Source: Thermococcus stetteri
GTDB taxonomy: Archaea; Methanobacteriota_B; Thermococci; Thermococcales; Thermococcaceae
Direction of reading: 5' to 3'
DNA: 64,000 nucleotides
NCBI RefSeq assembly: GCF_017873335.1
Contig: NZ_JAGGKB010000003.1
Span: 62,001-126,000 of the forward strand
A model generated the notes under the pieces. It worked only from the letters and a program-made list of their open reading frames with translations, was not told where the DNA came from and did not search any database. A program made the position numbers and the translations under genes. Positions 3,579 to 8,564 of the stretch are shown here, piece after piece (position 1 is the stretch's first letter; each line of letters starts with the position of its first letter).

Positions 3579-3623
3579 GGTTGAGCTACAAATTAGAAAA
3601 TGAAAAATTAGGTGGTGGTAAAG

Positions 3624-4418
3624 ATGGTTAAGGACAGGATGGTAGAGCTCCTTCAGGAGCACTTTGAGTTGAACCTGTACGAGGCTAGGGCGTACGTGGC
3701 CCTCGTCGGGTTCGGAGTACTTACCCCTGCAGAACTCGCCAGCGTCTCCGAGGTTCCGGCACCGAGAACCTACGACGTCCTCAGGAGCCTTGAGAAGAAG
3801 GGCTTCGCCATAAGCCAGCCGGGCAAGGTCAACAAGTACAGGCCGGTTCACCCGGAGAACATCCTCGAGAAGTTCATCGAGGAGTGGCAGGAGCGCGTTA
3901 AGGAAGAGCTTGAGGCCAAGAAGAAGGCCAAGGAGGAGCTCATCGAGCTCATGAAGCCGCTCATTGAAACCGAGATTCCGAAGTACGGTGTCGAGAGGGT
4001 CTGGGTCGTCCGCGGAATAAGGAACGCCACGCTCAAGACCAGGGAGATGTTCGAAGAAGTCAAGGAGAAGATCCTCCTTGCCGACGATGGATACATAGCC
4101 ATAAACCTCGAGAACGACCTCATTAAGGCCATCGACAACGGCGCCAAGGCCAAGATCATCGTGAGCAAGTCCCTCCTCAAGAGGCTTGAGGGCTCAAAGA
4201 TCATGGAGTACGCCAAGAAGGGCAAGCTCGAGCTCAGGGCCCTCGACAAGTTCGAGCTCCCGATGCTCATCTGCGACGACGAGGTCTTCTTCGCCCTTGA
4301 GGACATGGCTGCAAGGTACTTCAACTACGAGACCCAGGTCTGGATCAAGGACTTCAGGGTCAGGGACCTCTTCGAGACAAAGTTCAACGAGTACTGGGAG
4401 AAGGCCGAGAAGGTCTGA
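3624..4418 (+). CDS. trmBL2: TrmB-family chromatin protein TrmBL2
   Basis: A 264-residue TrmB-family protein. The N-terminal winged helix (about residues 5-75) reads through LYEARAYVALV and VPAPRTYDVLRSLEKKG, and is followed by a basic/acidic helix and a TrmB-like C-terminal domain. TrmBL2 in T. kodakarensis is an abundant protein that coats DNA, forms thick fibrous chromatin filaments and represses genes rather than sensing sugar. Identification rests on the length of 264 residues and on its place directly after reverse gyrase, both as in T. kodakarensis. In-frame GTG codons exist at 3612 and 3615, but they fall inside the ribosome-binding sequence, so ATG 3624 is preferred. It has its own promoter. 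Confidence 0.88.
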   Translation: MVKDRMVELLQEHFELNLYEARAYVALVGFGVLTPAELASVSEVPAPRTYDVLRSLEKKGFAISQPGKVNKYRPVHPENILEKFIEEWQERVKEELEAKKKAKEELIELMKPLIETEIPKYGVERVWVVRGIRNATLKTREMFEEVKEKILLADDGYIAINLENDLIKAIDNGAKAKIIVSKSLLKRLEGSKIMEYAKKGKLELRALDKFELPMLICDDEVFFALEDMAARYFNYETQVWIKDFRVRDLFETKFNEYWEKAEKV

Positions 4419-4735: not shown

Positions 4736-5067
4736 TCCAATCCCTCCAGTTGCTTATACCTCTCCAACAGCTCAATTATCTTCTCCATTACCCTTAAATG
4801 TTTCTCAAGCTCATCGATGTCATCAGGAAGGGAGTTCGCAAGCTGTGTCAGCTTCTCCCTCAGCCTCTCTTCAACTCCCTTAACTTCCTCCTTCATTTCG
4901 GCCTTCCTCTTCTTCTCTCTGTACTCGCATACTGGACAGAAGATCCTGCCGTCCTTCTCAAAGAGCGGTGAACCGCACTTGGGACAGTGCCTATCAAGCA
5001 TTCTGGCACCCGAGAGCATCAGGGGCATTATGACGTTCCTTATTTCCTCCTCAGTCGGCCCCTTCAC
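4732..5067 (-). CDS. Zinc-ribbon protein of the Sjogren/scleroderma autoantigen p27 (UPF0148) type
   Basis: A 111-residue protein with an N-terminal helix (EEEIRNVIMPLMLSGARML) and a zinc ribbon, CPKCG...CPVCEY, at about residues 28-50. A long charged, probably coiled-coil C-terminus follows. This order is typical of archaeal UPF0148 proteins related to autoantigen p27; their cellular role is not established. The gene overlaps its upstream neighbour (arginase family) and downstream neighbour (winged helix) by four bases each, which indicates a three-gene operon. Confidence 0.75.
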   Translation of the reverse strand: MKGPTEEEIRNVIMPLMLSGARMLDRHCPKCGSPLFEKDGRIFCPVCEYREKKRKAEMKEEVKGVEERLREKLTQLANSLPDDIDELEKHLRVMEKIIELLERYKQLEGLE

Positions 5068-5798
5068 TCCAATCCCTCCGTCAGGAGCTGAAAGACCTCA
5101 AAGAGCGCCCGCTTTCCAAGGCGGGAGTGCCTTATTCTGTCCGAGATTTCGGCTATATCGAACGCCACAATGTTAAACTCCCTCTTTATTGCCTCAAGTA
5201 TTTCAAGCAGTTCGTTGAGGGTCAGCTCGCCGTGCTGGAATCTGGCTATCTTGTACTCCGGTCTGAGGACGTCCATATCAACGGTGAGGTATACTTCACC
5301 CCCAAGATACTTCTTTGCATCCCTCATTATTTCATCAATGGAATTAGTCTGGAAGTTCTTATACGCCCTCCACTTCCCCCCTCTTTTTCTGCTCCTCAAC
5401 AGGGCCGGATATATCCTGACTCTCCTTGTCCAGAGCTGGGTTCTGTCCGTCGTTGGTATCATAAGGACGGGTGCCATCACGGCGGCCCTCTCAATGAATC
5501 TGCCCTCGAGGGCGTAGGCCAACCATGAGCCGTGATCGAGGTAGTCATGCATAAGATCGGTGTGAGCATCTACGCTGATCAGGGATTTCGGCCTCAGTCT
5601 ATCAATTATGCCGTATGTTGCTAGATGTTCCCCGACTACATAGGCCCTATCTTGAGGGATTCGCTCGGATAAAAGGTCAATCCTGCTGGCTTCAATGATG
5701 ACGTAATCCTCGATGAGTTTGTTCCGCTTCAATAGCTGGAGTGCATACAGAACCCCGTCTCGGTTGGGCTTCTCTCCGAAGGGTATGAAAGTTACCAT
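5064..5798 (-). CDS. Arginase/agmatinase-family metallohydrolase
   Basis: A ureohydrolase-fold enzyme of 244 residues. The binuclear metal ligands are recognisable: GEH in the position of the family GGDH, then DAHTD, then the pair in VDMDVLRPE. The family includes arginase, agmatinase, formiminoglutamase and histone-deacetylase relatives, so the substrate cannot be told from the sequence. An upstream in-frame TTG at 5858 exists. However, the likely TATA box (5829-5837) lies between the two, and GGTGG sits five bases before ATG 5798, so the shorter start is chosen. First gene of the minus-strand operon ending at 4523. Confidence 0.8.
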   Translation of the reverse strand: MVTFIPFGEKPNRDGVLYALQLLKRNKLIEDYVIIEASRIDLLSERIPQDRAYVVGEHLATYGIIDRLRPKSLISVDAHTDLMHDYLDHGSWLAYALEGRFIERAAVMAPVLMIPTTDRTQLWTRRVRIYPALLRSRKRGGKWRAYKNFQTNSIDEIMRDAKKYLGGEVYLTVDMDVLRPEYKIARFQHGELTLNELLEILEAIKREFNIVAFDIAEISDRIRHSRLGKRALFEVFQLLTEGLE

Positions 5799-5827
5799 CC
5801 TTTCCACCGTCCCGAATTGGCCCAGGC

Positions 5828-5837
5828 TTTTAAAAGC
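5828..5837 (-). promoter_or_regulatory. TATA box of the arginase-family operon
   Basis: On the minus strand GCTTTTAAAAG lies about 30-35 bases before ATG 5798, which predicts a very short leader. It supports the shorter start of the downstream gene. Confidence 0.5.
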
Positions 5838-5882
5838 GTTGGGAAAATCTATTGACAAATATGTGTTAATATCTCATGCTAA

Positions 5883-5891
5883 CCTTTAAAA
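5883..5891 (+). promoter_or_regulatory. TATA box of the HPS-PHI operon
   Basis: CCTTTAAAAA about 45 bases before ATG 5937, with the ribosome-binding sequence GGAGGTCG just before the start codon. Confidence 0.55.
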
Positions 5892-5936
5892 ACTCGACCC
5901 AAAACTTTCAACTGAAAAATCTCCGGAGGTCGAGTC

Positions 5937-7157
5937 ATGATACTCCAGGTCGCCCTTGACCTTACCGATATTGAACATGCCATGTCCATAGCCGAGAAGG
6001 CCGCCCGCGGCGGCGCCCACTGGCTTGAGGTCGGAACCCCACTCATCAAGAAGGAGGGAATGCGGGCAGTAGAGCTCATGAAGAGACGCTTCCCAGACAG
6101 GAAGATCGTCGCAGACCTGAAGACCATGGACACCGGCGCCCTTGAAGTTGAGATGGCCGCGAGACACGGTGCTGATGTTGTTTCTATCCTCGGCGTTGCC
6201 GACGACAAGACGATTAAGGATGCCGTCGAAGTCGCGAGGAGGTATGGAATCAGAGTAATGGTTGACCTCATAGGCGTCAAGGACAAGGTAAAGAGGGCCA
6301 AAGAGCTCGAGAAGATGGGAGTTCACTACATCCTCGTCCACACGGGAATAGACGAGCAGGCCCAGGGTAAGAATCCGCTTGAGGATCTTGAGAAGGTAGT
6401 TAAGGCCGTCAAAGTTCCCGTTGCGGTCGCCGGTGGTCTTAACCTCCAGACGATACCCAAGGTCATAGAGCTCGGAGCCACAATAATCATCGTTGGAGGC
6501 GCCATAACCAAGGCTAAAGACCCTGAGGAAGTCACCAGAAAGATAATAGACCTCTTCTGGGGCGAGTACATGATGACGATAAGGAAAGCAATGGTGGACA
6601 TAACCGACCACGTAAAGAGCGTCGCCGAAAACCTCGAGCTCGAACAGGTCAGGGGCCTCGTCGATGCCATGATAGGCGCCAACAAGATATTCATCTACGG
6701 CGCCGGAAGGAGCGGACTCGTTGGAAAGGCCTTCGCGATGAGGCTCATGCACCTCGACTTCAACGTCTACGTAGTCGGCGAGACAATCACACCAGCATTC
6801 GAGCCGGGTGACCTTCTCATAGCCATTAGCGGTTCCGGTGAAACAAAGACAATCGTTGACGCCGCCCAGATAGCGAAGGAGCAGGGTGGAAAGGTCGTCG
6901 CCATAACTTCCTACGCGGACTCAACACTCGGAAAGCTCGCGGACGTTGTCGTCGAGATTCCAGGAAGGACCAAGGCGGACGTCCCCACGGACTACATCGC
7001 CAGGCAGATGCTCACCCAGTACAAGTGGATAGCCCCGATGGGAACCCTCTTCGAGGACTCAACGATGGTCTTCCTTGACGGCGTTATAGCACTCCTCATG
7101 GCAACGTTCCAGAAGACCGAAAAGGATATGAAGAGAAAGCACGCGACCCTTGAGTGA
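5937..7157 (+). CDS. hps-phi: Bifunctional 3-hexulose-6-phosphate synthase / 6-phospho-3-hexuloisomerase
   Basis: A fusion of 406 residues. The N-terminal half (about 1-210) is the HPS TIM barrel of the OMP-decarboxylase superfamily (LEVGTPLIKKEG, VADLKTMD, GGLNLQTIP). The C-terminal half (about 220-406) is the PHI SIS isomerase (GAGRSGLVGKAFAMRL, ISGSGETKTIV, MGTLFEDS). In Thermococcales, which lack a classical oxidative pentose phosphate pathway, this enzyme runs in the reverse direction. It makes ribulose 5-phosphate and formaldehyde from fructose 6-phosphate for nucleotide synthesis. It matches the fused arrangement known in T. kodakarensis (TK0475). It is the first gene of a six-gene operon; its stop is 8 bases before the next ATG. 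Confidence 0.96.
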   Translation: MILQVALDLTDIEHAMSIAEKAARGGAHWLEVGTPLIKKEGMRAVELMKRRFPDRKIVADLKTMDTGALEVEMAARHGADVVSILGVADDKTIKDAVEVARRYGIRVMVDLIGVKDKVKRAKELEKMGVHYILVHTGIDEQAQGKNPLEDLEKVVKAVKVPVAVAGGLNLQTIPKVIELGATIIIVGGAITKAKDPEEVTRKIIDLFWGEYMMTIRKAMVDITDHVKSVAENLELEQVRGLVDAMIGANKIFIYGAGRSGLVGKAFAMRLMHLDFNVYVVGETITPAFEPGDLLIAISGSGETKTIVDAAQIAKEQGGKVVAITSYADSTLGKLADVVVEIPGRTKADVPTDYIARQMLTQYKWIAPMGTLFEDSTMVFLDGVIALLMATFQKTEKDMKRKHATLE

Positions 7158-7165
7158 GGGTCGCG

Positions 7166-7909
7166 ATGTTCCCCTTTACCCATATTTTTGTTGGAATTGG
7201 GAGCAACGGTTCAAGAATAGTGAATGGAATAGAAACGGACTCAGTGGTAAAAGTATCCCTGAACCCGGCCAGGTACCTCCTGAGACCAGGGGAATATGAA
7301 GAGAGGCTTGTGAACTTCTTCTCGAACGTTCCAAAAAACAGCTTTGTGTGGCTCGTCTTAGATGACACCCAGATAAACAGGGAGATTATGGAGATAATCC
7401 TTGAGGCACTCCCGTCAGATTCTATAAGGCTCGCTTATGTGCTCACGCCCAAGGTTGAACTGATCAACCGAAAACCCGAATGGGCGGATGAGTTTGAGAC
7501 AGTGTTCTACGACTCCCTCTGGGACTTTTTAAAGGAAGACGTGCCCCTTGGAAGGGCTTTTGAGGAAGCTTCCAAGAACATTTCCGAGATGTTCTCAAGG
7601 CTATACCACTACCTTGAAAGCGAGATGCTCGTGAACATAGACTACGCCGATCTCTTTAGCATGATACGCGGAGGAAACGTTGGTATAATGCGCCTTCTCC
7701 GCGAGGTGGACTTCAGCTGGCACTGGGGCATCTGGGAGCGCGGGCTTGTGGGAATACTTGTTGGTAAAGACTTCCCGCTGAGCGGTGCTCACGGGATACT
7801 CTCCAGGTTCCAGGAGATACTCTCTGAGAAGGACATAATCTGGGGCGTGATCACCGACAAAAACATTAAAGGCTCGGAAGTCCTCGCCCTGCTCGTAAAG
7901 AGGTGGTGA
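7166..7909 (+). CDS. Divergent FtsZ/tubulin-superfamily protein with degenerate GTP site
   Basis: A 247-residue protein that follows FtsZ in outline. Residues 6-21 (HIFVGIGSNGSRIVNG) match the first beta strand and T1 glycine loop. Residues 124-150 match FtsZ helix H6-H7. Residues 157-162 (NIDYAD) match the T7 catalytic loop with the Asn, Asp and Asp in place. Residues 193-240 match the C-terminal sheet (GLVGILVGKDFPL, DIIWGVITD). The T4 tubulin signature GGGTG(T/S)G is absent: about residues 60-80 read VWLVLDDTQINREIM instead. FtsZ polymerises with GTP; this protein probably cannot bind GTP normally. ATG 7166 is chosen over GTG 7154 because GTGAGGG gives it a ribosome-binding site. Function unknown. 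Confidence 0.7.
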   Translation: MFPFTHIFVGIGSNGSRIVNGIETDSVVKVSLNPARYLLRPGEYEERLVNFFSNVPKNSFVWLVLDDTQINREIMEIILEALPSDSIRLAYVLTPKVELINRKPEWADEFETVFYDSLWDFLKEDVPLGRAFEEASKNISEMFSRLYHYLESEMLVNIDYADLFSMIRGGNVGIMRLLREVDFSWHWGIWERGLVGILVGKDFPLSGAHGILSRFQEILSEKDIIWGVITDKNIKGSEVLALLVKRW

Positions 7910-7910
7910 T

Positions 7911-8564
7911 ATGGGCAGGATAAAGGCCGTTCTCTTCGACATCGATGGTACACTGCTAACTGAGATGCCGCTGATTCAGCTGTTTCTCCCCCAAGTGTAT
8001 GAAAAGCTGGCAAAAAAGCTGGGCATCAACAAAGAAGAGGCCAGAAACATGTTTATCTCCGAGATATTCTCAAGGCGGGACACCTACGACTGGCATGACT
8101 GGAACTTCTTCTTTGAGCTTTTTGGTCTCGAGATGCATTATGAAGACCTCTTGAGGAGGTATCCCCACAAGCTTCACGTTTATCCGGACACTATCCCGAC
8201 CCTTGAGTGGCTTAGGGAATCCGGGTACAGTCTGGGAGTCGTCACGAGCGGGCCGGAATACCAGCGCCTTAAGCTCAAGCTAGCAGGGCTTGACGGGTAT
8301 TTCGATGTTGTCGTGACTAGAGAGGACGTTAAGGCGATAAAACCGGAGCCCAAGATATTCCTCTACGCACTTGAAAAACTCGGTGTTGAACCAAAAGAGG
8401 CCGCCTTTGTTGGGGATTCCCTGAGCCAGGACGTTTATGGGGCGAAACACGTCGGAATGCTCTCAATATGGATAAACCGTGAGGGCGAACCCGGGCATCA
8501 TCTGGCAGACTATGAAATCAGGACGCTCCACGAGCTTAGGAAAATACTGGGGGTGGTAGAATGA
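7911..8564 (+). CDS. HAD-family phosphatase (phosphoglycolate-phosphatase type)
   Basis: A 217-residue HAD hydrolase. Motif I is FDIDGTLL with the nucleophile Asp, motif II is VTSGP, and the motif III lysine is in KAIKPEPKIF. Motif IV is VGDSLSQDV. A helical cap lies between motifs I and II (about residues 18-85). Such enzymes dephosphorylate small phospho-metabolites; the substrate is not predictable. It starts one base after the stop of the FtsZ-like gene and overlaps the next gene by four bases. Confidence 0.85.
   Translation: MGRIKAVLFDIDGTLLTEMPLIQLFLPQVYEKLAKKLGINKEEARNMFISEIFSRRDTYDWHDWNFFFELFGLEMHYEDLLRRYPHKLHVYPDTIPTLEWLRESGYSLGVVTSGPEYQRLKLKLAGLDGYFDVVVTREDVKAIKPEPKIFLYALEKLGVEPKEAAFVGDSLSQDVYGAKHVGMLSIWINREGEPGHHLADYEIRTLHELRKILGVVE

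Follow-up and report, generated by a model that had tools for sequence, protein, structure and literature searches.

A small FtsZ relative of the Thermococcales that keeps the T7 synergy loop and lacks a recognisable GTP site

FtsZ hydrolyses GTP only at the contact of two subunits, and SulA covers the T7 face of the protein; to our knowledge, regulators of archaeal FtsZ are poorly known. In high-resolution filament structures of SaFtsZ, the T7 residues N208, D210 and D213 act on the GTP of the neighbouring subunit, and within the GTP-bearing subunit D46, Q48 and R143 are key, with G72 of the T3 loop also holding the catalytic water (PMC8936486). According to the polarity model, the GTP-bound top is the surface through which an incoming FtsZ monomer attaches; MciZ covers the bottom interface (PMC8936486). 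The plant chloroplast FtsZ chimera ARC3 inhibits FtsZ assembly (PMC5855766). Canonical tubulin-superfamily genes are present in 94/94 Thermococcales genomes, normally three (FtsZ1, FtsZ2 and CetZ), the FtsZ1 being closest to MjFtsZ1 (E 6e-134). For this order, the main text of a survey of the archaeal tubulin superfamily gives CetZ and two strain-specific divergent proteins and describes no order-wide family. Here we describe a small, overlooked FtsZ relative found in nearly every Thermococcales archaeon, which may, if the reading that we favour is true, be a one-sided regulator of FtsZ filaments. No account of the family turned up in searches of openly accessible full texts, among them that on FtsZl-1 and FtsZl-2 (Makarova and Koonin 2010).

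The gene occupies positions 7166 to 7909 on the forward strand of the window, the whole 64,000-nucleotide stretch of Thermococcus stetteri DNA that was analysed, and encodes 247 amino acids, as judged from the open reading frame, the orthologue alignment and the predicted fold. The ATG at 7166 agrees with the start in orthologues, an alternative GTG at 7154 giving 4 extra residues, and the frame, coordinates and residues quoted in the first-pass annotation were all correct when checked again. That annotation had placed the product in the FtsZ superfamily from the letters alone, and the placement is borne out at several levels. A Pfam search gave no match at E ≤ 1, and the NCBIfam model for FtsZ (TIGR00065) matched residues 113 to 171 at E 4e-4 with 19.9 bits, far below its curated cut-off of 295.2. 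A single-sequence search of the PDB put FtsZ1 from M. jannaschii at the top (E 0.018), and a profile of 54 orthologues matched the same protein at E 2e-7, T7 and S8-S10 aligning in the expected order. Profile-profile comparison (hhalign) gave E 1.5e-11 for FtsZ2 and 2.3e-8 for FtsZ1.

The AlphaFold2 model, built on a 54-sequence alignment (pLDDT 87, pTM 0.86), has the predicted element order E-H-E-H-H-E-H-E-H-E-long H-H-E-E-H-E-E, with the two-domain arrangement of FtsZ and tubulin and a long helix at residues 128 to 151 as the central H7. A Foldseek search with this model, a check proposed in the first-pass annotation, retrieved FtsZ and not an unrelated fold: every one of the best 50 PDB matches is an FtsZ, the top one at E 2.9e-12 and probability 1.00, with TM-scores by query of 0.61 to 0.74 among those matches. 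Among viral structures, those of the best matches that carry a name are FtsZ, tubulin or PhuZ. On this model the fold is that of FtsZ with a shortened N-terminal domain. Compared to FtsZ, the H9 region and both the N- and C-terminal tails are missing; the protein stops at the S10 strand and therefore has no tail beyond it for membrane-anchor binding.

Archaeal FtsZ2 and FtsZ1 (for the latter, M. jannaschii FtsZ1, PDB 1FSZ/1W59) share with the 247-residue protein the two-domain fold, the order of elements, the T7 motif NxDxxD, the IIWG of S9 and a residual T1. Identity to them is about 25-31% and confined to the C-terminal half, and the protein differs from both in having lost the T2 Asp/Gln, T3, T4, the T5-H5 Glu/Arg, the T6 Asn and the H7 Asp. 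We aligned 66 distinct orthologues, the lowest having 48% identity to the query, with the Thermococcales FtsZ1 and FtsZ2. In all 66 the T4 signature GGGTGTG is gone from the S4-H4 junction (residues 60-81, positions 7343 to 7408), where S4 (60-66) runs nearly continuously into H4 (69-81) and about 8 residues are deleted; the absence of T4 at residues 60-80 noticed earlier is thus an outright deletion and not just an alteration. The losses go beyond that list to nucleotide residues of T2, T3, T5-H5, T6 and H7. At the former T2 loop, NPARY (residues 33-37, positions 7262 to 7276), the FtsZ Asp is found in 0/66 and the Gln has become Tyr in 63/66, so that the equivalents of SaFtsZ D46 and Q48 occur in none; deletions take in the T3 loop and the position of R143. 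The T5-H5 Glu/Arg is lost in the orthologues as well, and the H7 Asp is replaced by Ser, Ala, Gly or Thr. A recognisable GTP site is missing, and all that is left of it are the three T1 glycines, G10, G12 and G15, in the loop FVGIGSNG (residues 8-15, positions 7187 to 7210), each kept in 98-100% of orthologues.

The T7 synergy loop has fared very differently. NIDYAD (residues 157-162, positions 7634 to 7651) carries the T7 Asn, Asp and Asp, as had been read from the sequence, and N157, D159 and D162 are invariant in 66/66, as is A161; the orthologue alignment thus shows NxDxxD conserved and T4 lost together throughout. There are 108 core columns that FtsZ1 and FtsZ2 both conserve, and the orthologues keep 12 of them at ≥97%. 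All three T7 residues are among the 12 (hypergeometric p 0.001), as are the three T1 glycines. Retention is 3/3 for T7 and 3/23 for the conserved columns on the GTP side, the latter being the T1 glycines (Fisher p 0.008). The S9 region KDIIWGVIT (residues 222-230, positions 7829 to 7855), which also belongs to the bottom half of FtsZ, keeps W226 and G227 in all orthologues.

The most conserved element is the S6/T6 strand, TVFYDS (residues 112-117, positions 7499 to 7516), with a mean conservation of 0.96, Y115, D116 and S117 invariant and the T6 Asn replaced by Tyr115 in 66/66. It belongs to an aromatic-rich T5-H6 stretch, residues 95-118, that is conserved as strongly as T7, with P95, E98, L99, P104, W106, F110, T112, F114, Y115, D116 and S117 invariant. 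Because S6/T6 stands out in this way, the face next to the former GTP pocket may have a function too. Residues 95-118 may fill the core as a hydrophobic plug in place of GTP, or may make up a second face for binding.

The constant neighbours of the gene are metabolic. Upstream on the same strand lies a gene for a bifunctional 3-hexulose-6-phosphate synthase / 6-phospho-3-hexuloisomerase (HPS-PHI; 5937 to 7157; NF041755, 554 bits against a cut-off of 500), and downstream one for a HAD-family hydrolase (7911 to 8564; TIGR02253, 178.9 bits against 169.75), both assignments being supported by synteny. The order HPS-PHI, FtsZ relative, HAD on one strand recurs in 36/36 orthologous loci, counting those that reach 8 kb and have the gene intact; some of them share a genome. 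In orthologous loci the HAD gene often overlaps by 2 bases. A D-glutamate cyclase-like gene follows in 32/36 and is a less constant neighbour, and no ftsZ was found near the gene in the orthologous loci. The first-pass annotation had regarded cotranscription with these genes as unexplained; the puzzle is only narrowed, to an HPS-PHI/gene/HAD order kept throughout the Thermococcales. A hairpin at 7142 to 7165 (forward strand) contains the stop codon of HPS-PHI together with the likely ribosome-binding site, running up to the ATG. The structure is strong; besides the window, part of Thermococcus has it, preserved there with G-U pairs or compensatory changes, and others lack it; in one locus (L048) a paired A-U for G-C exchange has come about via a synonymous codon change. 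With the start codon placed at such a hairpin in some Thermococcus, the arrangement suggests, short of proof, translational coupling to HPS-PHI by termination-reinitiation. The gap between HPS-PHI and the gene is about 0.85 kb in two loci (L049 and L055) and short in most others. Not far away, the same strand of the window also carries the TrmBL2 gene (3612 to 4418; NF041141, 552 bits), and many orthologous loci have it in a like position.

Sequence comparison suggests that the family is probably an old duplicate of FtsZ2. In a full-length tree it forms a long branch with no firm placement, and in a tree of the C-terminal domain it groups with FtsZ2 (support 87/57), a clade with FtsZ1 being rejected (p-AU 0.023). 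As the branch is long, the affinity to FtsZ2 is a weak lean and not proof. CetZ, which belongs to the same superfamily and occurs in the same genomes, retains its GTP site, unlike the 247-residue protein, and hhalign detected no similarity between the two profiles (probability 0.8%); CetZ was accordingly ruled out as parent or close relative.

Taken as half of an active site, the protein, which we call half-site FtsZ, would set its T7 face against the GTP side of a genuine FtsZ, complete the active site there and act as a GTPase-activating negative regulator, a reading to which we give a probability of roughly 0.45. The T7 (bottom) face would contact a subunit of FtsZ2 or FtsZ1 at its top face, where GTP is bound, and Asp159 and Asp162 would position the attacking water as D210 and D213 do in SaFtsZ, so that GTP is hydrolysed. 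As half-site FtsZ has no GTP face, no subunit could stack on it and it would be a dead-end partner, capping the top end of filaments and competing for GTP-bound monomers. With the top surface covered, the polarity model (PMC8936486) implies that monomers would be removed, the top end capped and hydrolysis triggered. The role would thus be that of a GTPase-activating protein, a sequestering factor or an end cap, with FtsZ assembly lowered. FtsZ2 or FtsZ1 would be the likely partner, because CetZ has no detectable profile similarity. Rate covariation over 17 genomes picks out no particular FtsZ as partner (partial r 0.32 for FtsZ2, 0.48 for CetZ and 0.58 for FtsZ1). If translation is coupled to that of HPS-PHI, division could, speculatively, be linked to the supply of pentoses or nucleotides. 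The broader proposition, an order-wide GTPase-activating cap made by nature in which the catalytic T7 half has been split from the nucleotide half, possibly with expression coupled to pentose-phosphate synthesis, is one that we put forward tentatively. The idea of a one-sided regulator was already in the first-pass annotation; there is strong support for its structural premise, namely that every orthologue keeps the T7 half and has lost the GTP half, and one-sided binding to FtsZ as a cap or regulator fits the conservation pattern.

Half-site FtsZ would resemble ARC3 in being a negative regulator derived from FtsZ. ARC3 differs in being plant-specific and carrying a MORN domain, and the likeness would be one of role, with no orthology claimed. 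MciZ and SulA are unrelated proteins that would share with half-site FtsZ the logic of capping or sequestering, with the difference that half-site FtsZ would cover the GTP face instead.

Several observations weigh against a cap. The conservation of S6/T6 would not be needed by a purely one-sided protein, and the distance of the gene from ftsZ, together with its metabolic neighbours, counts against such a role, as does the failure of rate covariation to favour one FtsZ. An alternative is an adaptor that would use its T7 face on FtsZ and a rebuilt top face (residues 95-118) on another conserved partner or a non-GTP small molecule, linking FtsZ to a second system such as metabolism via HPS-PHI/HAD. 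The 11 invariant residues of 95-118, conserved like T7, and the HPS-PHI and HAD gene order identical in 36/36 loci speak for such an adaptor, but the same conservation could reflect the hydrophobic plug described above, and we consider the adaptor unlikely, if worth keeping in view. Less probable still is that the fold was co-opted for work outside filaments, as a scaffold or subunit of an HPS-PHI/HAD metabolic operon, with the T7 residues, as they could be, kept for local loop structure. Synteny is strict with metabolic genes and nil with ftsZ, and covariation with HAD (partial r 0.54) about equals that with FtsZ1 and exceeds that with FtsZ2. Structural constraint alone, however, would not predict exact retention of T7 amid the loss of 20/23 GTP-side columns, and in SaFtsZ the T7 residues are used for touching the adjacent subunit and for catalysis there (PMC8936486). 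Chance resemblance or a decaying pseudogene, which the weak single-sequence scores (TIGR00065 at E 4e-4, none in Pfam) might suggest, is highly improbable; the fold match and the conservation refute it, as profile, fold and motif evidence concur and the gene is intact across six genera.

Matches at E ≤ 0.001 occur in 92/94 Thermococcales genomes, covering all six genera, and in 74/74 of those with completeness of 90% or more and contamination no higher than 5%. A few of these genomes (e.g., G050, G057 and G062) have a lone match at E about 1e-4 in a long open frame; being weak and long, these are probably true FtsZ and no orthologue. The family occurs in Thermococcus kodakarensis and Pyrococcus furiosus, which are genetically tractable, and because hydrolysis needs two subunits, a subunit with one half of the active site would be a tool for separating polymerisation, capping and GTPase activation. 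A scan of genome contigs gave matches in Thermococci only, and a plasmid search found just a distant Haloarcula FtsZ. In the other orders of the class, searches found no orthologue and gave weak matches in frames of FtsZ length; two odd short-frame matches there proved to be true FtsZ, with GGGTGSG or GGGTGTG. A short FtsZ of 327 residues with a complete T4 (GGGTGSG) is encoded at 4957-5940 of a locus from another order of the class (L106), in addition to a standard FtsZ1-like protein (L108) in the same genome.

In genome G000 the block occurs a second time (L066, 5945-6699; G000:C2:360947-361698), comprising half-site gene, HAD, glutamate-cyclase-like, HD and KH genes. Its half-site gene is about 60-75% identical, has a frameshift near residue 103 and is preceded by just the 3' end of HPS-PHI; the copy either came by transfer from a different Thermococcus or is the product of a mixed assembly.
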